This document shows, in pieces, positions 6,373 to 46,021 of a DNA stretch of 64,000 bases. Position 1 is the first letter of the stretch; each line of letters opens with the position of its first letter. The translations under genes were made by a program, and so were the position numbers. Origin of the DNA: Ignavibacteriota bacterium (GTDB lineage Bacteria; Bacteroidota; Ignavibacteria; Tepidaquicellales; Tepidaquicellaceae); contig JAPLFJ010000034.1 in the NCBI GenBank assembly GCA_026390735.1, positions 62,001-126,000 of the forward strand. The letters are read 5' to 3'. The notes beneath the pieces are model-generated. The model saw only the letters and a program-made list of their open reading frames with translations, searched no databases and was not told the DNA's origin.

Positions 6373-9300
6373 TTATAATATATTAAGAATAATATTAAAT
6401 TTTGTTCCCTGTTTGAGATCATTATCAAGATAGAACTTACCGCCGTATTTCTGTATAACAGTGTTTGCATAACTTAACCCAAATCCCCTGTTTTTTCCTT
6501 TAGTTGAGATACCTTTCAGGAAGATTGAAGTTTTTATACTGTCAGGAATTCCACCGCCATAATCGATGAACTCAAGGACAAGGTTTTCTTTTTCCTGGTT
6601 GACGACCAGATCAATCCTGTCGGGTGATTTCGAATTATCCGCATCTGCATAAGCCTCAATTGCATTATCGAAGAATATCTTAAGTAAATCCACAAGTTCC
6701 CCTTTATTAAAAACAACTTTCGGGTTTGAAGTAAAATCCTTGTATGAGATTCTAAGTCTCGGATAAGTATCTGAATAGCTCCTGATCAGGCTATGGAAGA
6801 TTGACTCTATATCCGATGTAAAGTTATCATCGAATGAATTATTGATAACCTTCATTCTTGATTTGATCTTAACGATTGATTCAAGAATATTTTCAGTAAC
6901 CTGATTCATATTCTCGGAAGAATCGCGTTTCTTTATGGATTTACTGAGACTTTTAAGATTAACAAAAAGTTTTTCTGAGTACAATTCCAGTTCTTTAATA
7001 GCAGACAATACTTCATCATACATTGAAGTTTTCGGAAAATCGAAGTTCAGCCTGTTTAAAATAGATATTATGTATTCCAGCTGCGGGTAAACAGAATTAT
7101 CAAATTCATTTATTAAAGATACAAACCTGTTCAGAATTTCCTTCTCGGTATTTTTAAGTTGCGAGCCTTCATCGAAGATATAATGATAGTTTTTCATAAA
7201 CAGTGAAATCCTGTTCAGGCACGTAATAGAACTTTCGCCATGCTTAAAAACTTTAAGTTTAATGAGTAAATTAACGTATGGATTGATGATATTATCGAAT
7301 CTTTCGGATGTCCTTTCATAGTAAAGTTTGCCAATCTCCCAGATTACAGACTGAATCAATCTGTTCGGCAGCATCTTTGAATGAATTTCCACAAACAGCA
7401 CTGAACCATCCGCCTTAAGAAGTCTTCTTTTGGCAATGATTGTTTTACCGTCTAAAGCATCTATGAATCTGGGGTCTTCATAATTCGGGTCAGACGTATC
7501 GAATAAATCCATAATATTAATCTGAATCAGATTATGTTTAGTATAACCCAGCAGTTTACAGGCTATTGCATTAGCTCCTTTGATTGCACCCTTTGCGTCA
7601 AAAAGTATTGTACCGTCGAGTGCCTGCTCAATAACGACGCTGTAATCAGTCTTAAACCTCTGGATTTTCTCAAAAAACTTCTTTTCGGTTATATCTTCAT
7701 AAAGGTAAAACCTGCCAAGATATTCTCCGCCTTTATCGGCAAGGAGAGACGAGAACCTTCTTAAAGTTCTTCCGTTCAGGAAATTGATTTCATCCTCAAA
7801 TGTAATCTGATTATCAGGGTTTCCGTATTTTGCCGTAGACTGGATAAAGCTATCAGGATTAATAACGTTAACAGAACACATCCTTAATACTTCAGAACTT
7901 TTTATCTGTCTGCGGCTGATTTGATCAAAATACTCAGGGAAATTCCACAGTTCACAGAATTTCTCATTAACGTATAGAACCGAATCATCCTTCTTATTAG
8001 CCACATAATAGCCGTACCTAGTACTGTCAGTCATTATCCTTAATAGAGTTTCATTCCATGCAATTATATTTTCTTTATTCTTGAAATCTGTTATATCCTG
8101 AATAACTCCGCAGAAATAGTAATCGTCTCCGTCATAAACTTTTGACATAATATTCTCCACCCAGATAATATCATCGTTCGCCTTTCTGCATCTGTAATTA
8201 ATCTTAAAAGTATCTTTGGACTGAGAGGAACTCCATTTATTAAACTCATTCAGGTATTCGCTTATGTCTTCCTGAACAATGATTGATTCCAGAAAATTTT
8301 CTTTCATAAGAATTGACTCTGACGAATAGCCGAGAATTTTCTGGACGTTGGAAGAGATAAACGGGTTCCTGCCTCCGAATTCATAAAGGACTATGTTCGA
8401 AATATTATTAAGAATAGTTCCGAGTCTTAACCTGGAATTTACAAGTTCCTGGATTGCTTTTTTATTCTCGGAAATATCTTCTTTAATAAGAAGATAGTTG
8501 CCTATAACTCCTTTAACATTACTTACCGGTGAAATCAGTATATTTTCCCAGTACAGGTTACCGCTTTTAGTGACGTTAATCATCTGAGCACGCCACTCTT
8601 TGCCGGAAGAAATGATTTTCATAACCTCATCAAACTCATTCAATGTCATTTGCGGGGGTTTGATATCTTTCAGACTTTTCCCTTTAACTTCCTTAAGTTC
8701 ATATTCAGTGAGTTGAGTGTATCTGTTATTAATTGACTCTACGATTAAATCTTCATTCAGGATAGCAATAGCTGTTGCACTTGAATTGAGAGCGGAGGAG
8801 AGTTTCAGATTATCTAATTCAACTTTTACTTTTGCGGTTATATCCTGATAGATTAAAAGCCCTGCATTGATATTACCGTCAGAATCTTTTAAAGGTGCTC
8901 CGTACAGTTCAAGCAGCAGAACAGTTCCGTCTTTCCTGTTTCTTTCAAGATTGCTTTCGTAAATAGTACTGCCCTGGAATAAACTTATACATTTATTGTT
9001 ATAGGTAACATAATCTTCCTTTATAACAATCGGGTTAAACTTCCCGACGACTTCGGAAGCCTCCCAAGAGAATAAACGCGCTGCACCATCACTCCAGAAT
9101 TTCACTTTCCCGTCCAGATCAATAACAACAATTCCAAGCGGTGAGGAACTCAAGATAGTATTTAATAGCTCATTAGTTTCAGACAAAGAGGAAATTGATT
9201 CTTTTAATTCCGTGATATCCCTTCCGACTCCCTGAATCTCGACAATTCTGCCTTTCTCATCTTTAATCGCAACATCTTCCCAGTGTATCCATCTCCATCC

Positions 9301-33062: not shown

Positions 33063-33103
33063 AAACAAATATAAGAATAATTAAGCTAAATAGAAATTAG
33101 AAT

Positions 33104-33127
33104 TAGTTGTCAGTTGACAGTTGATAG
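33104..33127. repeat. AGTTGTC-type heptamer repeat, copy 1
   Basis: Three successive heptamers AGTTGTC-AGTTGAC-AGTTGAT in the gap upstream of the GlcD-like gene. Related runs occur at 36403, 39445 and 51164, always between genes. Confidence 0.6.
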
Positions 33128-35047: not shown

Positions 35048-35104
35048 AACCGTTGAAACGGTTGGAGAATAATTCCATTTACACCCCACGGATAAATCCG
35101 TGGG
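35048..35104. repeat. Paired palindromic element (variant B, second copy)
   Basis: AACCGTT-GA-AACGGTT at 35048-35063 and CCCACGGAT-AA-ATCCGTGGG at 35085-35104, as at 26464. The 34921-35226 gap holds only this element, a small GCATCC-GAAA-GGAATGT imperfect hairpin near 35175, and the 20-bp direct repeat below; no gene. Confidence 0.85.
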
Positions 35105-35150: not shown

Positions 35151-35230
35151 TATTCTTATACTATTTTTAATTTAGCATCCGAAAGGAATGTCATAATTTG
35201 AAATTGATAGTATTCTTATACTATTTTTAA
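35151..35230. repeat. Exact 20-bp direct repeat spaced 60 bp
   Basis: TATTCTTATACTATTTTTAA is present at 35151-35170 and again at 35211-35230. The second copy contains the stop codon of the cysteine-synthase-like gene (35227-35229). Confidence 0.8.
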
Positions 35231-36339
35231 TGCTGTCTTATTCTTCTCGGGCATGGCGGAAGCTGAACTTCGTCTATATGTTCATAGTCGGCTTCGATGC
35301 AAGTGAGCGGGTCGCAGCAAGTGTGACACACGCGCTTGTATGCGTGGAAACCAAGAAGTTCAACATCGGGTGAGAGGAATCCGTCTTTCACGGGCTCCGT
35401 CTTCAGCAAGTCTGTGCTTAAATACTTTTTGTTATCATCACAGAAGACTGTAACAACTACGGCATCTTTACCCATTTCGTTTTGCTTCATTAGTGCGCCT
35501 ATAAAGTTTGCACCTGAAGAGATGCCTACTCCGATACCGAGTTCGGACGCAAGTTTCTGAGCCATAATGATTGCATCGCCGTCATCAACACTGATTATAT
35601 GATCAAGGTTATCGAGTTTAACAATTTCAGGAATGAATTCATCTGAGATTCCCTGTATTCTGTGCTTGCCAACTTTATGCCCTGTTGTCATTGTCGGAGA
35701 GTTAGCAGGTTCGAGCGGATGTATTTTAATTTCAGGATGAACCTCCTTAAGGTACTTCCCAACTCCCATAACTGTTCCGCCTGTACCAACGCCTGCGATG
35801 AATGCATCGGGCTTCAAACCTCTGAAACGTAGCTGCCACCAGATTTCAGGTCCGGTAGTTTCGTAATGTGCAGAAACATTATCGTCGTTAGAAAACTGTC
35901 TTGGCAGGAATGTGTTCGGATTAGCTTCAGCATATGCTTCAGACAATGCGATACTTCCGAGGAATCCGCCCTGCTCTTTGCTGACGAGGTTTATTTCAGC
36001 ACCAAGACTTTTTATTAATTCAATTCTTTCCCTGCTCATCCAGTCGGGCATATAGATAATAACTTTGTGACCAAGCGACCTGCCGATAGCGGAGAAGGAA
36101 ATGCCAGTGTTACCGCTTGTGGCTTCGATTATTTCATCGCCGCTTTTAAGAATACCTCTTTCGTATGCTTTCTTAATAATATGAAGAGCCATTCTGTCTT
36201 TGATACTGCCAGTCATATTAATGTTTTCTGCTTTGGCATAGATAGTTCTTTTCTCGCCTTTGTAGAAGAACTCAATAGCAAGCAAAGGAGTGTTACCGAT
36301 TAAGTGCGAAATGTTATGCAGTCTTGTGTTATTATCCAT
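35227..36339 (-). CDS. Cysteine-synthase-like PLP enzyme with Cys-rich tail
   Basis: Beta-replacement PLP enzyme of the CysK/CBS fold type II group. IGNTPLL starts the fold; the PLP lysine is in [17 protein letters not shown] binds substrate carboxylate; GVGTGGT binds the PLP phosphate. It ends about residue 320, followed by an extension with [10 protein letters not shown] and a last Cys in PPCPRR, five or more cysteines that could bind a metal. 370 residues, longer than CysK (about 310). Reaction could be O-acetylserine sulfhydrylation or a related beta-replacement. Single gene, divergent from the pyrimidine operon. Confidence 0.88.
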
Positions 36340-36402
36340 TATATTTTAGATTTTGAGAAAAATAGGAAATTAGAAATCGTAATACAATTTAGAAATGTGG
36401 AT

Positions 36403-36419
36403 TAGTTGTCAGTTGATAG
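36403..36419. repeat. AGTTGTC-type heptamer repeat, copy 2
   Basis: AGTTGTC-AGTTGAT in the divergent intergenic region upstream of the pyrimidine operon. Confidence 0.5.
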
Positions 36420-36471
36420 TTCACAATTGTTAAACCATCACTGAACGCAGGTCAGAACTATGGCAATACTG

Positions 36472-36479
36472 TAATTTTG
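36472..36479 (+). promoter_or_regulatory. Putative -7 box of the pyrimidine-degradation operon
   Basis: TAATTTTG fits the TAnnTTTG consensus. A start site a few bases downstream would give a leader of about 120 nt carrying the small ORF at 36525 and the hairpin at 36550. No clear -33 element. Confidence 0.4.
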
Positions 36480-36524
36480 GATTGTACATAAAATCTAAAA
36501 TGATTATTAAAGAGGTTCAATAAG

Positions 36525-36566
36525 ATGAAATTTGAATTTAAAAGACAGTATATCAGGGAAATATAG
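36525..36566 (+). CDS. Candidate 13-residue leader peptide
   Basis: ATG at 36525 with AGAGG 9 bp upstream starts an ORF of 13 codons (MKFEFKRQYIREI) and a TAG at 36564-36566. Its last codons form the left arm of the hairpin at 36550-36575 and its stop codon lies at the end of the hairpin loop. The geometry is that of a transcription-attenuation leader in front of the pyrimidine-degradation operon. No homology to known leaders is claimed; it could be chance. Confidence 0.4.
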   Translation: MKFEFKRQYIREI

Positions 36567-36580
36567 CCCTGATATTTTGT
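36550..36580 (+). terminator. Terminator-like hairpin in operon leader (possible attenuator)
   Basis: Perfect 9-bp stem ATATCAGGG/CCCTGATAT with an 8-nt loop, followed by TTTGTTTT on the plus strand. The minus side has no T run. It lies 29 bp before the mmsA-like ATG, and the gene upstream is divergent, so its natural role would be on the operon's own transcript. Just downstream GTTTTA/TAAAAC could form a further small hairpin. Confidence 0.6.
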
Positions 36581-36608
36581 TTTAACTAAAACGTTTTAAT
36601 ATTTTATT

Positions 36609-38072
36609 ATGGATAAACTAATTTATAAAGAAGTAAGAAATTTTATCGACGGAAAATTCGTATCAGGCGGTAAGAAGATGCTCGACGTTATATGCCCGCT
36701 CGACGGGAAAGTGATTTCAAAAGTGCCTTTGTCAGGCAAGGCGGAACTCGACGCAGCAGTTGATGCTGCTAAGAAAGCATTTCCTGCCTGGGCTGCGATT
36801 CCTATAAAGGAAAGAGTTCAGATATTTTACAGATACAAGACTATTCTTGAAAAGAATATAGAGGAACTGACATACGTTACTCATATTGAATGCGGAAAGA
36901 CTCTCGGCGAAGCAAGAGCAGAGGTTGAAAAGAGCATTGAACTGACAGAGTTTGCTTGTTCACTTCCGCAAATGCTTGGCGGAGAGATTCTGGAAGTAAG
37001 CAATGGTGTGGAATGCAGGATTGATTATCATCCTGTCGGAGTTGTAGCGTCAATTGCACCATTTAACTTTCCTCACATGGTACCTCACTGGACAATTCCT
37101 AATGCAATAGCTGCAGGAAATACAATGGTCTTCAAGCCGTCTGAAATTGTTCCGATAACTTCAAACCACATAGCAGAGATGCTGAAAGAAGCAGGACTGC
37201 CCGACGGAGTATTCAACATTGTAAACGGTGACAGGGAAATAGTTGAAGGAATCTGCGACCATCCGGGTATAAGTTCTGTATCGTTTGTTGGTTCCACTAA
37301 AGTTGCAAAGATTGTTTACGCAAGAGCGGCATCGAACTTCAAGAAAGTTGCAGCACTCGGCGGAGCGAAGAATCATTTAATAGTTTTACCTGATGCGAAT
37401 GTACAGATGACGGCATCGAATGTTGCTGCATCTATGACGGGCTGTGCAGGACAAAGATGTATGGCTGCTTCAGCGATGGTTGGAGTAGGACCTGTTGACC
37501 ATATTATAGAACAGCTTTGCGAAGAAGCAAGAAAGATTGTACCCGGGAAGAATCTTGGTTCGGTCATAACAAAAGCCGCAAAGGAAAGAATTGAAAAGTA
37601 TATAACAGATGCAGAAAAGCAGGGTGCAAAGATTTTAGTTGACGGAAGAAATGCGATAGTAGAAGGAAAAGAAGGCGGATATTATGTTGGTCCGACAGTA
37701 ATAGACAACGTAAAACCTGATATGCCGATTGCGAAAGAAGAAGTATTCGGTCCAGTGCTTGCGATTATGAGAGTGCAATCACTTGACGAAGCAATGGCGA
37801 TTGAAAACAGTTCAGAATACGGAAACGCAGCAGCGGTATTCACGCAGAACGGAAGTTACGCAAGAACAGTTATAGAAAAAGCATCGGCGGGAATGATTGG
37901 CGTTAACATCGGTGTGCCTGTACCGAGAGAACCATTTTCATTCGGCGGATGGAACGAATCGAAATTCGGAACGAATGATATTACAGGAAAGAGTTCTTTA
38001 GGATTATGGATGCAGCCGAAGAAGACAAGCATTAAATGGAATGCTGAAGCCAAAACAAACTGGATGAGTTAA
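36609..38072 (+). CDS. mmsA: CoA-acylating (methyl)malonate-semialdehyde dehydrogenase
   Basis: ALDH-family enzyme converting malonate semialdehyde to acetyl-CoA, or methylmalonate semialdehyde to propionyl-CoA, with CO2 release and NAD reduction. Catalytic Cys is in TGCAGQRCMAAS; the substrate-side block FNFPHMVPHWTIPNAI and the cofactor segment VSFVGSTKVAK are typical MmsA. 487 residues is normal. First gene of the pyrimidine-degradation operon, where it would perform the last step, after the transaminase encoded 18 bp downstream. Confidence 0.95.
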   Translation: MDKLIYKEVRNFIDGKFVSGGKKMLDVICPLDGKVISKVPLSGKAELDAAVDAAKKAFPAWAAIPIKERVQIFYRYKTILEKNIEELTYVTHIECGKTLGEARAEVEKSIELTEFACSLPQMLGGEILEVSNGVECRIDYHPVGVVASIAPFNFPHMVPHWTIPNAIAAGNTMVFKPSEIVPITSNHIAEMLKEAGLPDGVFNIVNGDREIVEGICDHPGISSVSFVGSTKVAKIVYARAASNFKKVAALGGAKNHLIVLPDANVQMTASNVAASMTGCAGQRCMAASAMVGVGPVDHIIEQLCEEARKIVPGKNLGSVITKAAKERIEKYITDAEKQGAKILVDGRNAIVEGKEGGYYVGPTVIDNVKPDMPIAKEEVFGPVLAIMRVQSLDEAMAIENSSEYGNAAAVFTQNGSYARTVIEKASAGMIGVNIGVPVPREPFSFGGWNESKFGTNDITGKSSLGLWMQPKKTSIKWNAEAKTNWMS

Positions 38073-38090
38073 TTTAAAGGGGAATAAAAA

Positions 38091-39440
38091 ATGTATAACA
38101 TAACAGAAGACAAGAACGAAATACTAAACAATAATCTGACCTACACATTAACATCGTGGTCAAAGCAAAAAGGATTAAAACCGCTTAACATCAAAAGTGC
38201 AAAAGGAATATACCTTTACGATTACGATGGAAAGAGATATACAGATTTTTCATCGCAGTTAGTATGCGTAAACATCGGCCACGGTCATCCGAAAGTTGCA
38301 GAAGCAGTCGCAAAACAGATGAGCGAAGTGAGCTATGTTTATCCCGGAATGGTAACTGCAGCACGCGGAGACCTCGGTAAAAAACTCGCAGAGATTTCAC
38401 CTGAGGGAATGAGCAAAACATTCTTCACACTCGGCGGTGCCGAAGCAGTAGAGAATGCGATTAAGCTTGCAAGAATTTATACAGGAAGACACAAGATAGT
38501 AACTTTTTATCAGTCGTACCACGGTGCGACATACGCAAGTGCGTCTGCAGGCGGCGACCCGAGAAAGCAGGCAATAGATTCACAACAACCGCCTAACTTT
38601 ATACACGTGGAGAATCCTTATTTCTACAGATGTCCGTGGCACAGCAAAACTCCCGAAGAGTGCACAGATAACGCAATCGCACATCTTGAAAGAGTATTGC
38701 AGTATGAAGGTCCGCAGAATGTAGCGGCAATAATGCTCGAAGGAGAATCGGGTTCATCAGGCTGCATTAAGTATCCTGTGGGTTACTGGAAGAAAGTGAA
38801 AGAGATTGCTGATAAGTATGGAATACTCACAATCGCGGATGAAGTAATGAGCGGGTTTGGCAGAACAGGTAAATGGTTCGGAATAAATCATCATGATGTA
38901 GTACCTGATATAATGCCGATTGCAAAAGGATTAACATCAGCATACATTCCACTTGGCGGAATAATTGTAAAAGATGAAATATCTAAAGCGTTTGACGATA
39001 AACCGCTTCCATTAGGACTTACATATTCTGCACACGCAGTTGCCTGTGCGGCAGCAAATGCAGTTCTGGATATTTACGAAGAAGAGAACCTTGTAGAAAA
39101 TGCAGCAACAATGGGGAAATACATTGAGGATAAAGTTGAAGAAATGAAGAAGATACATCCGTGTATCGGTGATTTCAGAAATACAGGTTTACTCGGCTGT
39201 CTTGAACTCGTGAAGAACAGAGAAACGAGAGAACCGATGGCAAGATGGAATGCCCCTCCTTCAGAAATGGAAGTAATGAATAAAGTAATGGGGAAGATTG
39301 CAGAACAGGGAATGTACACGATGGGCAGATGGAATCTTGTGTTTGTAGCTCCGCCGCTTTGCATTAATAAAGCCGAAGTTGATGAAGGTATGGAAATAAT
39401 ATCAAAAGCACTTTCGATAGCGGATGAATATTGTGTTTAG
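38091..39440 (+). CDS. Class III aminotransferase (beta-alanine/3-aminoisobutyrate transaminase candidate)
   Basis: PLP-dependent fold type I omega-aminotransferase, 449 residues. The Asp of ILTIADEVMSGFGRTG holds the PLP nitrogen and the Schiff-base Lys is in PIAKGLTSAYIPLGG. Context between mmsA and the uracil-degradation enzymes makes beta-alanine (and 3-aminoisobutyrate from thymine) the likely amino donor, giving (methyl)malonate semialdehyde. An alternative is a generic omega-amino acid transaminase. GGGG ribosome-binding-like sequence lies upstream of the ATG. Confidence 0.9.
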   Translation: MYNITEDKNEILNNNLTYTLTSWSKQKGLKPLNIKSAKGIYLYDYDGKRYTDFSSQLVCVNIGHGHPKVAEAVAKQMSEVSYVYPGMVTAARGDLGKKLAEISPEGMSKTFFTLGGAEAVENAIKLARIYTGRHKIVTFYQSYHGATYASASAGGDPRKQAIDSQQPPNFIHVENPYFYRCPWHSKTPEECTDNAIAHLERVLQYEGPQNVAAIMLEGESGSSGCIKYPVGYWKKVKEIADKYGILTIADEVMSGFGRTGKWFGINHHDVVPDIMPIAKGLTSAYIPLGGIIVKDEISKAFDDKPLPLGLTYSAHAVACAAANAVLDIYEEENLVENAATMGKYIEDKVEEMKKIHPCIGDFRNTGLLGCLELVKNRETREPMARWNAPPSEMEVMNKVMGKIAEQGMYTMGRWNLVFVAPPLCINKAEVDEGMEIISKALSIADEYCV

Positions 39441-39444
39441 ATAT

Positions 39445-39475
39445 TAGTTATCAGTTGTTAGTTGTCCGTTGATAG
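39445..39475. repeat. AGTTGTC-type heptamer repeat, copy 3
   Basis: Degenerate AGTTATC-AGTTGTT-AGTTGTC-CGTTGAT run inside the 105-bp gap between the transaminase and the transporter. The run continues as TTAGTTTTTAGTTAATAG to about 39509. Confidence 0.5.
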
Positions 39476-39545
39476 TTTTAAAATAGTTTTTAGTTTTTAG
39501 TTAATAGTTTATGGGGAATAAATTATTCGAACGTAAAAACAATTA

Positions 39546-41057
39546 ATGAAGATTGATCCAAACGAAATAACGGAGAAGGGAATGTCCTCTTCACTGCATA
39601 GTGAAGACCTGGCCCCTATTCCTGAGTCTAAAAGGACGTGGAATACGTGGAACTATACTGCGCTATGGATAAGTATGAGTTTATGCATTCCTACGTATAT
39701 GCTTGCGAGTTCACTAATCGAAGGAGGAATGAACTGGTGGCAGGCAATACTGACAATCTTCATTGGCAATACTATTGTGCTTTTACCTATGGTACTTAAC
39801 GGGCACGCAGGTGCAAAATACGGAATACCTTTTCCTGTTCTTGCACGTGCAAGTTTCGGAGTGAAGGGTGCAAACATTCCTGCAATACTTAGAGCGATTG
39901 TAGCCTGTGGATGGTTTGGAATACAAACGTGGATTGGCGGCTTTTCTATATATCAGGTAATAAGAGTCTGGGTTCCGTCATTTGAGAATCTGCCTGAGAT
40001 ATTTCCTCCGTCGCTTGGTTTGCATACAGGTCCTGCAATTTCATTTTTCCTTTTCTGGATACTGAATATGTATGTGGTATATCTTGGAGTTGACAGCATT
40101 AAGAAACTTCTCGTCTTTAAAGCATTCTTTTTACCAATTGCTGCAGTAGCTTTGCTTTACTGGGCAATATCAGCGGGTAACGGATTAGGTCCGATACTTG
40201 CACAGCCATCGAAGTTCAGTACGACTGGAGAATTTTTCCTATACTTCTTCCCTGCCCTGACTGGAATGGTTGGGTTCTGGGCAACACTATCACTTAACAT
40301 ACCTGACTTTACAAGATACGCGAAAAGCCAGAAGGCACAGGTAACTGGACAGATACTTGGCTTACCGCCATCGATGACATTGTTTTCATTCGTCGGTGTA
40401 GTTGTAACTTCTGCAACGTTTATAATCTACGGTCAGACAATCTGGGACCCTGTTATACTTGCGGCTAAATTCGACAGCAAGATACTTGTGAGTTTAGCGA
40501 TGATAAGTATTGCAGTATCAACACTTGCGACAAACATTGCAGCAAACATCGTAAGTCCTGCGAATGACTTCGCTAATTTATCGCCGTCGAAAATAGATTT
40601 CAGAAAAGGCGGATATATTACAGGAGTAATAGGGATACTAATACTACCCTGGAAACTTATAGAAGACCCGAGCGGATATATTTTCAAATGGCTGATTGCA
40701 TATTCAAGTTTACTAGGTCCGATTGGCGGAATAATGATATCGGATTACTTTTTCATAAAGAAGAAACAACTTGTTGTAGATGACCTTTACAAACTAAAGG
40801 GTATTTACACTTTCCAGAACGGGTTTAACAGGAATGCAGTGATTGCATTGATTGTGGGTATACTTCCTAATGTACCCGGATTTCTTACAACAATAAACCT
40901 GGTAAATAAAGATGCTATGCCTTTATGGATAGAAGACATTTACCATTATGCATGGTTCGTCGGATTCTTTGTTTCCTTTGTTGTTTATTATTTTCTGGAA
41001 AAGAATACAAATTCAATTAATAATTTAAATACTATAAATAATGTCAATACTGATTAA
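39546..41057 (+). CDS. NCS1-family nucleobase/hydantoin:cation symporter
   Basis: 503-residue inner-membrane transporter with about twelve helices. TWNTWNYTALWISMSLCIPTYMLASSLI is the NCS1 first-helix signature (NW...SL.IPTY), and LPVLARASFG-type sequence PFPVLARASFGVKGANIPAI follows. NCS1 proteins import uracil, cytosine, hydantoins or allantoin; the operon suggests uracil, thymine or dihydropyrimidines. Its 3' end overlaps the dihydropyrimidinase start by 17 bp. Confidence 0.93.
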   Translation: MKIDPNEITEKGMSSSLHSEDLAPIPESKRTWNTWNYTALWISMSLCIPTYMLASSLIEGGMNWWQAILTIFIGNTIVLLPMVLNGHAGAKYGIPFPVLARASFGVKGANIPAILRAIVACGWFGIQTWIGGFSIYQVIRVWVPSFENLPEIFPPSLGLHTGPAISFFLFWILNMYVVYLGVDSIKKLLVFKAFFLPIAAVALLYWAISAGNGLGPILAQPSKFSTTGEFFLYFFPALTGMVGFWATLSLNIPDFTRYAKSQKAQVTGQILGLPPSMTLFSFVGVVVTSATFIIYGQTIWDPVILAAKFDSKILVSLAMISIAVSTLATNIAANIVSPANDFANLSPSKIDFRKGGYITGVIGILILPWKLIEDPSGYIFKWLIAYSSLLGPIGGIMISDYFFIKKKQLVVDDLYKLKGIYTFQNGFNRNAVIALIVGILPNVPGFLTTINLVNKDAMPLWIEDIYHYAWFVGFFVSFVVYYFLEKNTNSINNLNTINNVNTD

Positions 41058-42420
41058 AAACGGAAGAGTAATTACTGCAACAGATGATTACTCAGCGGAT
41101 ATATTTATCGAAGGAGAAAAAGTTTCTCTTATCGGTAATAATCTGAATGTAAAAGCCGATGAGGTAATAAATGCAAAGGGCAAACTGGTAATGCCCGGGG
41201 GCATTGACCCGCACGTGCATCTTGAGATGCCTTTTATGGGAACGTTTTCAACTGATAATTACGAGACTGGAACACTGGCTGCTCTTCACGGCGGAACGAC
41301 TACAGTAATAGATTTTATAATACAGAAACAGGGTGACTCATTGAAAGCAGCTTACGATGAATGGACAGGAAGAGCAAACGGAAATGCTTACGGTGATTAT
41401 GCATTCCATTTGGCAGTAACAGATTTTAATGATGAGACTAAGAAGGAAATAGAATACTTCATAAACGAACTTGGTATTACATCGTTCAAGACTTTCATGG
41501 CTTACAAAGGTGCATTGATGATTGACGACAAACAGATGGTTGGACTGATGCATGAAGTGAAAAAACACGGAGGCATTGTAACGAGTCATGCAACAAACGG
41601 TGACATTATCGATTACCTCGTATCAAAGCATAAGGCAGAAGGAAAACTATCGCCTTTATACCATTATCTGTCGCAGCCCGAAGTTACAGAATCGGAAGCT
41701 ACAGGAAGGTTTACTGATATGGCATACAATACGGGAGTTCCTTCATACATAGTACATATGTCGTGCGAGGGTTCGCTTAATGCTTTAAGACGTTCGCAAC
41801 TAAGACACCAGAAAGTATATGCAGAGACCTGTGTACAGTATTTAATACTTGATGCTTCATTGTATGAAAAGAATTTTGAAGGAGCAAAATGGGTTATGAG
41901 TCCGCCGTTACGCGAGAAGAAAGACCAGACAGCATTATGGGGCGGAATAAGTCAGGGTTCAATACAGACCATCGCAACAGACCACTGTCCGTTTCACTGG
42001 GAACAGAAGTTAAACGGTAAAGATGATTTCTCAAAAATACCTAACGGTGCACCGGGAATAGAAAACAGGATGGAACTGATGTTCAGCGAGGGTGTGCATA
42101 CAGGAAAAATATCTCTTAATAAATACGTTGAGATTACTTCTACAAATTCAGCGAAGATATTCGGAATGTTTCCGCGCAAAGGTACAATAAGCATAGGTTC
42201 AGATGCTGATATAATTATATTCGACCCTAATGAAGAACACACAATATCAGTGAAAAGCCATCATATGAACGTTGATTATTCTGCATACGAAGGATGGGAA
42301 GTAAAAGGGAAATGCAAGCAGACAATACTCAGAGGTAAACTTGTGATAGACAACGGAGAAGTGAAAGCTAAAAAGGGTTACGGGCAGTTCATAAAGAGAG
42401 ATAAATTTAAAAACGTTTAA
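41041..42420 (+). CDS. Dihydropyrimidinase
   Basis: Cyclic amidohydrolase opening dihydrouracil/dihydrothymine to N-carbamoyl-beta-amino acids. First metal motif GGIDPHVHLEM; the bridging carbamylated Lys is expected in FKTFMAYKG; further metal ligands are in VTSHATNGD, VHMSCEG and IATDHCPF. The usual HAEN is HATN here. 459 residues is normal. D-hydantoinase activity is possible from sequence alone, but the flanking genes fix the pathway. Start at 41041 lies inside the transporter gene end, so translation is coupled. Confidence 0.94.
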   Translation: MSILIKNGRVITATDDYSADIFIEGEKVSLIGNNLNVKADEVINAKGKLVMPGGIDPHVHLEMPFMGTFSTDNYETGTLAALHGGTTTVIDFIIQKQGDSLKAAYDEWTGRANGNAYGDYAFHLAVTDFNDETKKEIEYFINELGITSFKTFMAYKGALMIDDKQMVGLMHEVKKHGGIVTSHATNGDIIDYLVSKHKAEGKLSPLYHYLSQPEVTESEATGRFTDMAYNTGVPSYIVHMSCEGSLNALRRSQLRHQKVYAETCVQYLILDASLYEKNFEGAKWVMSPPLREKKDQTALWGGISQGSIQTIATDHCPFHWEQKLNGKDDFSKIPNGAPGIENRMELMFSEGVHTGKISLNKYVEITSTNSAKIFGMFPRKGTISIGSDADIIIFDPNEEHTISVKSHHMNVDYSAYEGWEVKGKCKQTILRGKLVIDNGEVKAKKGYGQFIKRDKFKNV

Positions 42421-42441
42421 TAAATTTCAAATAATAAAGTT

Positions 42442-43308
42442 ATGCCAAGAAAAATTAAATCAGGGTTAATACAGATGTCGCTTCCGATGACGGAAGGCGA
42501 AGGAACCATTGCACAGATAAAAGAAGCAATGATACAGAAACATATTCCATACATAGAAGAGGCAGGTAAAAAAGGCGTACAGGTTTTATGCTTACAGGAA
42601 ATATTTAACACTCCATATTTCTGTCCGGGACAGGATAAGGCATGGTATGAATCTGCTGAACCAATGCCAGGACCAACGGTTGAGAGAATGCAGGAATATG
42701 CGAAAAAATACAGTATGGTAATAGTCGTTCCTATATTCGAAAAGGAACAAGCAGGCGTATTATACAATACTGCAGCCGTGATTGATGCAGACGGAACAGT
42801 ACTCGGTAAATACAGAAAGAACCATATACCTCATACTTCAGGATTCTGGGAAAAGTTTTTCTTTAAACCAGGCAACCTTGGATATCCGGTGTTTCAGACT
42901 AAGTACTGCAAAGTAGGAGTTTATATCTGCTACGACAGGCACTTTCCTGAAGGGGCAAGAATACTCGGATTGAACGGTGCGGAAATAGTATACAATCCAT
43001 CGGCAACAGTTACAGGTCTTTCACAATACTTATGGAAACTCGAGCAACCTGCACACGCAGCAGCAAACGGGTATTTCATGGGATGCATTAACAGAGTTGG
43101 TGTTGAGAAGCCATGGAGCATAGGTAAGTTTTACGGATCATCGTACTTCGTTGACCCGAGAGGACAGATATTTGCACAGGCATCAGAAGACAATGACGAA
43201 TTACTCGTTGCAGATTTTGACTTAGACATGATAGAAGAAGTGAGGGCCACCTGGCAGTTCTTCAGAGACAGAAGACCTGAAACATACAATAAATTAACCG
43301 AGTTATAA
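42442..43308 (+). CDS. Beta-ureidopropionase (nitrilase superfamily)
   Basis: Hydrolyses N-carbamoyl-beta-alanine (or N-carbamoyl-3-aminoisobutyrate) to the beta-amino acid, CO2 and ammonia. Catalytic triad: Glu in LCLQEIFNTPYFC, Lys in KYRKNHIPH, Cys in VGVYICYDRHFPEGAR. 288 residues. Homologous to N-carbamoylputrescine amidases too; operon context decides. The stop codon overlaps the preT start by one base (TAATG). Confidence 0.93.
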   Translation: MPRKIKSGLIQMSLPMTEGEGTIAQIKEAMIQKHIPYIEEAGKKGVQVLCLQEIFNTPYFCPGQDKAWYESAEPMPGPTVERMQEYAKKYSMVIVVPIFEKEQAGVLYNTAAVIDADGTVLGKYRKNHIPHTSGFWEKFFFKPGNLGYPVFQTKYCKVGVYICYDRHFPEGARILGLNGAEIVYNPSATVTGLSQYLWKLEQPAHAAANGYFMGCINRVGVEKPWSIGKFYGSSYFVDPRGQIFAQASEDNDELLVADFDLDMIEEVRATWQFFRDRRPETYNKLTEL

Positions 43309-44633
43309 TGGCAGAATTTAAGCGACCAACAAACGAACAGGAATTTGAGAATAATTTTTCTCCGATTAAAGTACTAATGAACAAATCAGAAGCAATTCTG
43401 GAAAGTTCAAAGTGCCTGTTCTGTTATGATGCACCCTGTACAAAGGCCTGTCCTACTCATATTGATATTCCGCTTTTCATAAGACAGATAAACAGCGGGA
43501 ATATGACAGGTTCAGCAATGACAATTTATGCATCGAATTATATGGGAAACCTGTGCGGTAAAGTATGTCCGGTTGAAGTGCTTTGCGAAGGTTCGTGTGT
43601 ATACGTGAATCAGGGCGTTAAGGCAGTTGAGATAGGAAGACTTCAGAATTACGCAACGCATAAAGTACTTTCGGAAAAAATACATATATTTTCTGAAGGA
43701 GAAAAAGTAAACAAGAAAGTTGCAATTATTGGCGGCGGACCTGCCGGACTTTCCTGTGCAAGCGAACTCCGTAAGGCTGGGATTGAAGTTGACATTTATG
43801 AAGGAAGGAAAATGGCTGCAGGACTTGCATTACACGGAATAGCTCCGTATAAGATTGCTAATGAAGATGTTCTGGAAGAATTGAATTATCTTCAGGAGCA
43901 GTTTCATTTCAACATTATATACAACAGTTTTATAAAAACCAAAGCTGATGTAGCAAAACTTGAAAAGGAATATGATGCAGTATTTCTTGGTATAGGAAAT
44001 TCAAGCACATCTGCGTTAAACATTCCGGGTGAAGACAAGAAGGAAGTTTATGGTGCAGTTGAGATAATTGAAGAATTAAGGATGAAGAAGAGTAACCTTG
44101 TTTACGGAAACAAAGTGATAGTATTCGGCGGTGGAAACACCGCTATGGATGCAGCATCTGAATCTGCAAGAATGGGGGCAGAGACAGTCTTACTTGCTTA
44201 CAGAAGGTCGAAGGAAAACATGGGGGCTTATGAATTTGAGTACGACCTTGCGAAGAGTGCAGGTGTAAAGGCATACTTCAACGTTGCTCCTGTAGAAATA
44301 CTCGGCGACGAAAAAGTTACAGGTGTTAAGTTTATAAAGACTGAGATAAAAGACGGGAAGCTGAAAACCATTGCTGGAAGTGAATTTACTGAAAAATGTG
44401 ATATGGTTATCAAAGCCACAGGTCAGTCAAGACACTTTGAATTATTTGATAATATAAGTAAGCTTGAAGTAGATGACCTCGGTAGAATTATCGTAGATGA
44501 AAATTTCCGTACAATGAATCCAAAATACTTTGCAGGCGGCGATGCAGTAAACGGCGGTAAGGAAGTTGTTAACTCAGTAGCAGAAGGAAAATTTGCTGCC
44601 TCCAGTATTATTAAACAATTAACTAAAATTTAA
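43308..44633 (+). CDS. preT: Dihydropyrimidine dehydrogenase, flavoprotein subunit PreT
   Basis: NAD(P)H-oxidising subunit of the two-part dihydropyrimidine dehydrogenase. The N-terminal helical iron-sulphur domain has CLFCYDAPCTKACPTHID and NLCGKVCPVEVLCEGSC. FAD fold IIGGGPAGLSCASEL at about residue 142 and nucleotide fold VFGGGNTAMDAASESARMG later. 441 residues. With PreA it reduces uracil/thymine (or runs in reverse). It overlaps the ureidopropionase gene by one base and is 26 bp from preA. Confidence 0.95.
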   Translation: MAEFKRPTNEQEFENNFSPIKVLMNKSEAILESSKCLFCYDAPCTKACPTHIDIPLFIRQINSGNMTGSAMTIYASNYMGNLCGKVCPVEVLCEGSCVYVNQGVKAVEIGRLQNYATHKVLSEKIHIFSEGEKVNKKVAIIGGGPAGLSCASELRKAGIEVDIYEGRKMAAGLALHGIAPYKIANEDVLEELNYLQEQFHFNIIYNSFIKTKADVAKLEKEYDAVFLGIGNSSTSALNIPGEDKKEVYGAVEIIEELRMKKSNLVYGNKVIVFGGGNTAMDAASESARMGAETVLLAYRRSKENMGAYEFEYDLAKSAGVKAYFNVAPVEILGDEKVTGVKFIKTEIKDGKLKTIAGSEFTEKCDMVIKATGQSRHFELFDNISKLEVDDLGRIIVDENFRTMNPKYFAGGDAVNGGKEVVNSVAEGKFAASSIIKQLTKI

Positions 44634-44659
44634 AGTAGAAATAAATAAGTTTTAAAAAT

Positions 44660-46021
44660 ATGAGTGCAAAATCATCAAAGAATAAACTGGCAAGTAATTT
44701 AGCCGGGATAAAATCACCTAATCCGTTCTGGTTAGCATCGGCACCGCCGACTAATTCGGGATATCAGATTATGAAGGCATTCGATGCTGGATGGGGCGGA
44801 GCTGTCTGGAAAACGATGGGCGTACCTGTTGTAAACACATCGAGCAGATACGGAGCAGTTTCGTACAAAGGGAACAGGATGTCCGGGTTTAACAACATCG
44901 AATTAATTTCTGACAGGACGCTTGCTGATAACCTTCGCGAAATTGAAGAGGTGAAGAAATACTTCCCCGATAATGCAGTAGTAGGTTCTTTGATGGTACA
45001 ATCTAAAGAAGAATGGCATCAGATTATAAAAGATGTTGAGAATGCAGGTGTTGACGGAATAGAACTTAACTTCGGATGCCCTCACGGAATGTGCGAAAGA
45101 GGAATGGGCTCTGCAGTTGGACAGGACCCCGAAGTACTTGCATTAATCACGTCGTGGGTAATGGAAGTTGCAAAGGTACCCGTAATAGTAAAGCTGTCAC
45201 CAAACGTTTCACATATTCAGGACCCTGCAATCGCGGCTAAGAAGGGCGGAGCAAATGCAGTATCACTCATAAATACGATTCAAAGTATAATAGGTGTTGA
45301 TATAGATAACTTTGTCCCCTATCCGACAGTCGACGGCAAGAGCACTAACGGCGGATACTGCGGACCTGCAGTAAAACCTATTGCACTTAACATGGTAAAG
45401 AATGTTGCAAAGATACCTGATTATAATTTACCGATATCAGGAATTGGAGGCATAGAAAACTGGAGAGATGCAGTAGAATTTATTCTTATGGGAGCAACCA
45501 ACGTTCAGGTATGCACAGCAGTAATGCATTACGGGTTTGGAATAATCAGAGAAATGGTATCAGGACTTGAACAATATATGTCAGACAAAGGGTTTAACTC
45601 AATAGATGAAATGGTTGGCAAAGCATTGCCTAATGTTCAAAAGTGGGAAAACCTCAACCTGAAGTATAAGATTATTGCGGAGATTGAAGAATCTAAATGT
45701 ATCGGATGTCAGTTGTGTTATATTGCATGTGAAGACGGTGCACATCAGGCGATTAAATTATCTGAAAACGGAGAGAGCAGAATTCCAAAGATTATAGAAG
45801 AGAATTGTGTCGGCTGCAATTTATGTTCGCTGGTATGTCCGGTTGAGAGTTGCATTTCGATGGTTCGTAAAGACAATGGTAAAGAAGAACTGACCTGGAC
45901 TGAACGAACTGAAAGAGGAGATATTCCAACTACATTTAACGATAAAATGGCAGGGGGACTCGGTCACTTCGTTCCTGAGCCAAAGAAAGCAATTGAATAC
46001 AGATTAAGTTCTAAGAAATAA
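44660..46021 (+). CDS. preA: Dihydropyrimidine dehydrogenase, catalytic subunit PreA
   Basis: FMN-containing TIM-barrel (dihydroorotate-dehydrogenase-like) with two C-terminal 4Fe-4S clusters (CIGCQLCYIAC and CVGCNLCSLVCP). Pyrimidine/FMN contacts include ELNFGCPHGM, KLSPNV, and GGYCGPAVKPIALNMV. Where mammalian enzymes have the catalytic Cys in 'ACGQDPE', this has AVGQDPE, which I recall also in bacterial PreA, while an extra Cys sits in HGMCERGMG. 453 residues. Last gene of the operon; it converges with an old-yellow-enzyme gene 8 bp away with no visible terminator. Confidence 0.95.
   Translation: MSAKSSKNKLASNLAGIKSPNPFWLASAPPTNSGYQIMKAFDAGWGGAVWKTMGVPVVNTSSRYGAVSYKGNRMSGFNNIELISDRTLADNLREIEEVKKYFPDNAVVGSLMVQSKEEWHQIIKDVENAGVDGIELNFGCPHGMCERGMGSAVGQDPEVLALITSWVMEVAKVPVIVKLSPNVSHIQDPAIAAKKGGANAVSLINTIQSIIGVDIDNFVPYPTVDGKSTNGGYCGPAVKPIALNMVKNVAKIPDYNLPISGIGGIENWRDAVEFILMGATNVQVCTAVMHYGFGIIREMVSGLEQYMSDKGFNSIDEMVGKALPNVQKWENLNLKYKIIAEIEESKCIGCQLCYIACEDGAHQAIKLSENGESRIPKIIEENCVGCNLCSLVCPVESCISMVRKDNGKEELTWTERTERGDIPTTFNDKMAGGLGHFVPEPKKAIEYRLSSKK

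Follow-up and report, generated by a model that had tools for sequence, protein, structure and literature searches.

In leader-peptide attenuators of the trp, his and pyrBI type, a terminator lies between the promoter and the first gene, and a short ORF runs into this terminator. The pyrBI operon is biosynthetic, and pyrBI-type control needs no antiterminator fold. PyrR-controlled attenuators also combine a pyrimidine-related operon with a leader terminator, and in riboswitches and leaders governed by antiterminator proteins (LicT/SacY, ANTAR) a conserved 5′ leader is followed by a terminator. Leader-peptide attenuation has been reported as likely upstream of amino-acid biosynthesis operons in a flavobacterium (PMC9723704), and leader terminators as such therefore have a precedent in the phylum. 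A narrow literature search returned no account of reductive pyrimidine catabolism being controlled by attenuation and little on leader RNAs in Ignavibacteria.

The leader described here shares each of these arrangements, the short ORF running into the terminator being that of the window, a 64,000-nt stretch of contig JAPLFJ010000034.1 from an Ignavibacteriota bacterium. We compared it with a second species of the same genus, L003, which we equated with genome G005 because both match at 97%. An earlier note on this DNA had proposed that translation of a 13-codon ORF controls a terminator hairpin in front of the operon. The features are as follows.

36472–36479, plus strand: −7 promoter box TAATTTTG of the TAnnTTTG type, the sole TAnnTTTG of the gap in both species
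36479–36520, plus strand: conserved and largely unstructured 5′ block, sharing 41 of its 42 nt with L003; candidate for sensing or binding
36500–36523, plus strand: short ORF encoding MIIKEVQ and a stop; the L003 version encodes MIIKEVQKF and a stop, with the ATG kept
36525–36566, plus strand: 13-codon ORF of the earlier note, without conservation in L003
36542–36583, plus strand: predicted intrinsic terminator, with core stem 36550–36558/36567–36575 and outer stem 36542–36548/36577–36583
36609–46021, plus strand: seven-gene reductive pyrimidine-degradation operon, from family matches
36390–36421, 33091–33122 and 39441–39500 in the window and 4656–4701 in L003: degenerate TTGTCAGTTGATAGTT-like repeats, which occur in several intergenic gaps of both genomes

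The first gene of the operon codes for a CoA-acylating (methyl)malonate-semialdehyde dehydrogenase, and the others for a class III aminotransferase, an NCS1 permease, a dihydropyrimidinase, a nitrilase-type amidohydrolase, a PreT-like subunit and the dihydropyrimidine dehydrogenase PreA. Matches above cut-off were obtained for TIGR01722, NF004718, TIGR00800, TIGR02033 (dihydropyrimidinase) and PRK08318/PreA, while similarity and context served to assign the PreT-like subunit and the amidohydrolase, likely a beta-ureidopropionase. The gene upstream of the leader (35227–36339) is on the minus strand and hence divergent from the operon, as the earlier note had it, and the elements that it listed within the leader are all present where it placed them. 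Besides the −7 box, these are an AGAGG at 36511–36515 ahead of the 13-codon ORF, the ORF itself (ATG at 36525, product MKFEFKRQYIREI), its TAG at 36564–36566, which closes an 8-nt loop, the perfect 9-bp hairpin around that loop (36550–36575, with arms ATATCAGGG at 36550–36558 and CCCTGATAT at 36567–36575) and, directly 3′ of the hairpin, the U tract TTTGTTTT, which is broken by one G. The 9-bp hairpin proved to be the core of a larger one: AAAGACA (36542–36548) pairs with the U tract to form the outer stem, and the extended hairpin comprises 16 pairs and one T-T mismatch. Its predicted folding energy is −19.1 kcal/mol (z = −5.7), and none of 200 shuffled sequences folded as well.

The TAnnTTTG consensus occupies positions −12 to −5 in Flavobacterium psychrophilum (PMC9723704); applying this placement to the box at 36472–36479, we infer that transcription starts near 36484. 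The 5′ block takes in the final base of the box as well as the beginning of the transcript. By eye, no −33 element was recognisable upstream of the box. Between the hairpin and the ATG of the first operon gene, 33 nt downstream, neither species has a further TAnnTTTG, so the operon RNA would have to pass the predicted terminator. Just 5′ of the first gene lies a palindrome, TAAAACGTTTTA (36585–36600), whose core AAACGTTT is kept in L003; it may represent a LacI-type site or no more than A/T-rich sequence around the start.

At the DNA level the first operon gene is 86% identical to its L003 counterpart, with 50% divergence at fourfold sites and differences at 188 of 487 third positions (about 39%), and none of its 45-nt windows has one difference or fewer. 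The leader region (36465–36608) is also 86% identical, with a single difference in the 42 nt of the 5′ block. Three other gaps compared with L003 were at the level of shuffled sequence (real/shuffled values of 0.33/0.31, 0.27/0.27 and 0.20/0.21). The −7 box aligns in L003 as TAnnTTTG with different letters at nn. Both arms of the core hairpin are unchanged (18/18 positions), the loop has 7 nt in L003 instead of 8, the U tract is kept, and the outer stem largely persists or gains in pairing (G-U to A-U, T-T to A-U), with loss of the outermost pair. This conservation is the decisive evidence, and chiefly because of it we count the hairpin as real; the alignment shows that, downstream of the −7 box and ahead of the first gene, the hairpin and U tract are selectively conserved. 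All comparative statements on the leader are drawn from two sequences. As a check, the earlier note had proposed to look in relatives for a conserved peptide and a covarying stem: the hairpin is kept in L003, the ORF is not, and no pair is altered on both sides between the two sequences, whose core arms are invariant.

As a background we used 344 kb of the source genome, made up of 280 kb of genome stretches and the window. A strict hairpin-plus-U definition retrieved 39 sites, of which 26 are closely 3′ of the end of a same-strand gene, thereby indicating that hairpins of this class are placed like working terminators in this genome. Two sites are inside genes and two in divergent gaps, one of the latter being the leader hairpin and the other lying behind a tRNA gene. 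A strict hairpin in the leader of a protein gene is thus unusual for this genome. A loose terminator pattern gave 11 sites compared to 13.1 expected in 18 kb, which is no enrichment over chance. Elsewhere in the window, a strong GC-rich hairpin, CCCACGGATAAATCCGTGGG, lies at 35085–35104 between two minus-strand genes, with a T-rich plus strand.

DNA homology recovered the leader in G005 alone among 29 family genomes, and a covariance model singled out only the two species from these and 294 class genomes; one extra match (E = 0.0075 per genome) is of a strength that chance alone should produce across 294 genomes. In the five genus genomes, the 5′ block is present in one copy per operon-bearing genome, and a pattern of its 3′ 25 nt had no match elsewhere. 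Within the genus, G005 is the sole other genome with the first operon gene at high identity; no close relative of it was seen in G002, G003 and G004, three of the four other genus genomes, and the operon is therefore patchy within the genus. At the dehydrogenase loci of about 70 relatives, 57 of 69 genes have a divergent neighbour or a gap of at least 100 as counted from mechanical ORFs, so that most of these genes begin a transcription unit. Near the dehydrogenase start at these loci, a hairpin like that of the leader was found only in L003, with unlike candidates upstream in L014, L039, L042 and L082, and the operons of relatives at 79% identity or less have neither such a hairpin nor the 13-codon ORF. 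By these searches, the leader is lineage-specific among the sampled genomes.

We read the leader as a transcription attenuator with an intrinsic terminator, at a probability of about 0.6, because it is conserved, its hairpin resembles a terminator and no promoter box lies between hairpin and gene; in both species a terminator-like hairpin with its U tract is conserved ahead of the first gene and downstream of the promoter. RNA synthesis would begin near 36484, and by default some polymerases would halt after the U tract near 36580, yielding an RNA of about 95 nt, while the others would continue into the seven-gene operon. Both actual termination at the hairpin and regulation of read-through are our inference. 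The likeliest place for sensing would be the 42-nt segment with which the leader opens, which is conserved and for the most part unstructured. About half of the probability of attenuation goes to binding of this segment by a trans-acting RNA-binding protein or small RNA, about a third to ribosomes on short ORFs running toward the hairpin, and the rest to a terminator that simply damps expression and involves no switch. What speaks against attenuation is that two sequences provide no covariation, that a G interrupts the U tract, that the more distant operons do not have such a hairpin and that, when the terminator was forbidden, no alternative antiterminator fold upstream of the hairpin was common to both species. 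A lineage-specific attenuator in which recognition of the 42-nt segment by some factor or small molecule decides read-through, as a new way of sensing uracil or nitrogen status, is a speculative and unlikely extension of this reading.

In the version of the earlier note, a ribosome on the 13-codon ORF would cover the left arm of the hairpin and prevent termination; a ribosome on a short ORF whose translation is coupled to that of MIIKEVQ could do the same. What stands of this proposal is a terminator conserved in the operon's own leader and likely early termination, but control by the peptide is unsupported. The ORF and hairpin have a suitable geometry in the window, but L003 has TTG in place of the ATG, loses the frame to a 1-nt indel about five codons in, and reaches its stop 3′ of the hairpin instead of in the loop, so that on this alignment there is conservation neither of a fixed peptide sequence nor of a stop placed in the loop. 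The ORF is also not enriched in codons that relate obviously to pyrimidines or beta-alanine, and the AGAGG is weak evidence because SD-like motifs are sparse in this genome (ahead of 34 of 257 genes, whose starts are rough, compared to 16 after shuffling). The seven codons of MIIKEVQ are common to both species with zero nucleotide changes; since third positions are included, this suggests constraint on nucleotides and not only on codons, and MIIKEVQ looks no different from a conserved block without coding function. The stop of MIIKEVQKF in L003, a TGA, overlaps a TTG (TTGA, 8570–8573), and the TTG frame runs through the terminator. Because a possible start codon, ATG or TTG, immediately adjoins the end of this first short ORF in both species, and because a second frame is open at least into the hairpin loop, we keep translation control in view as an unlikely sub-case, whose weight is part of that given to attenuation; the open frame of L003 is, however, not unlikely by chance.

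The same region could be a separate small RNA gene of about 95 nt that happens to precede the operon. Its unstructured 5′ part and terminator are canonical sRNA anatomy, and the other divergent-gap terminator of the 344 kb ends a tRNA gene, but the operon, with only the 33 nt between hairpin and ATG and no TAnnTTTG there, would then be left without a recognisable promoter of its own. We consider this quite improbable as a replacement for attenuation, with which it is compatible, since the RNA of an attenuated leader might double as an sRNA. We give similarly little credit to a DNA operator, in which a transcription factor would bind either the 26-bp dyad, ATATCAGGG-N8-CCCTGATAT, or else the block where transcription begins. 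The dyad is perfect and the conserved 5′ block is right at the transcription start; however, the change of spacing from 8 to 7 with identical arms, for which an RNA loop is more tolerant than a dimeric protein, favours an RNA hairpin over a rigid operator, the U tract is conserved as well, and no regulator gene adjoining the operon was recognised among the ORFs read. An operator role may nevertheless fall to the 5′ block. Finally, the long stem, with its 16 pairs extending through the U tract, might protect the mRNA or be processed within it without causing termination, but its resemblance to the terminators of the source genome, T-rich tail included, makes this highly improbable.

If attenuation is regulated, the leader would be a testable case in Ignavibacteria, and the conserved 5′ block marks where a signal may act. 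Rfam contains no family above its gathering score for the leader; the best match, the pan motif, was rejected with 16.5 bits, far below the cut-off of 36.2, its similarity also beginning upstream of the −7 box in unconserved sequence. Unlike riboswitches and LicT/SacY leaders, this leader thus has no Rfam family, nor does it have a conserved aptamer fold, and no CAT_RBD protein of the LicT/SacY antiterminators was found in the source genome (control genomes were positive). The search for ANTAR proteins was silent in control genomes too, and no paired hexaloop hairpins of the ANTAR type were seen in the leader folds. In contrast to PyrR attenuators, there is no Rfam match to the PyrR element at E up to 10, PyrR was not found in the source genome (control genomes were positive), and the operon is catabolic rather than biosynthetic. 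The latter also sets it apart from leader-peptide attenuators, as do an unconserved ORF without control codons and, in the two species, neither a conserved ORF start and stop at the hairpin nor an alternative antiterminator fold. Attenuation here would be control of an ordinary kind, applied to an operon that is less usual and sampled in two species.
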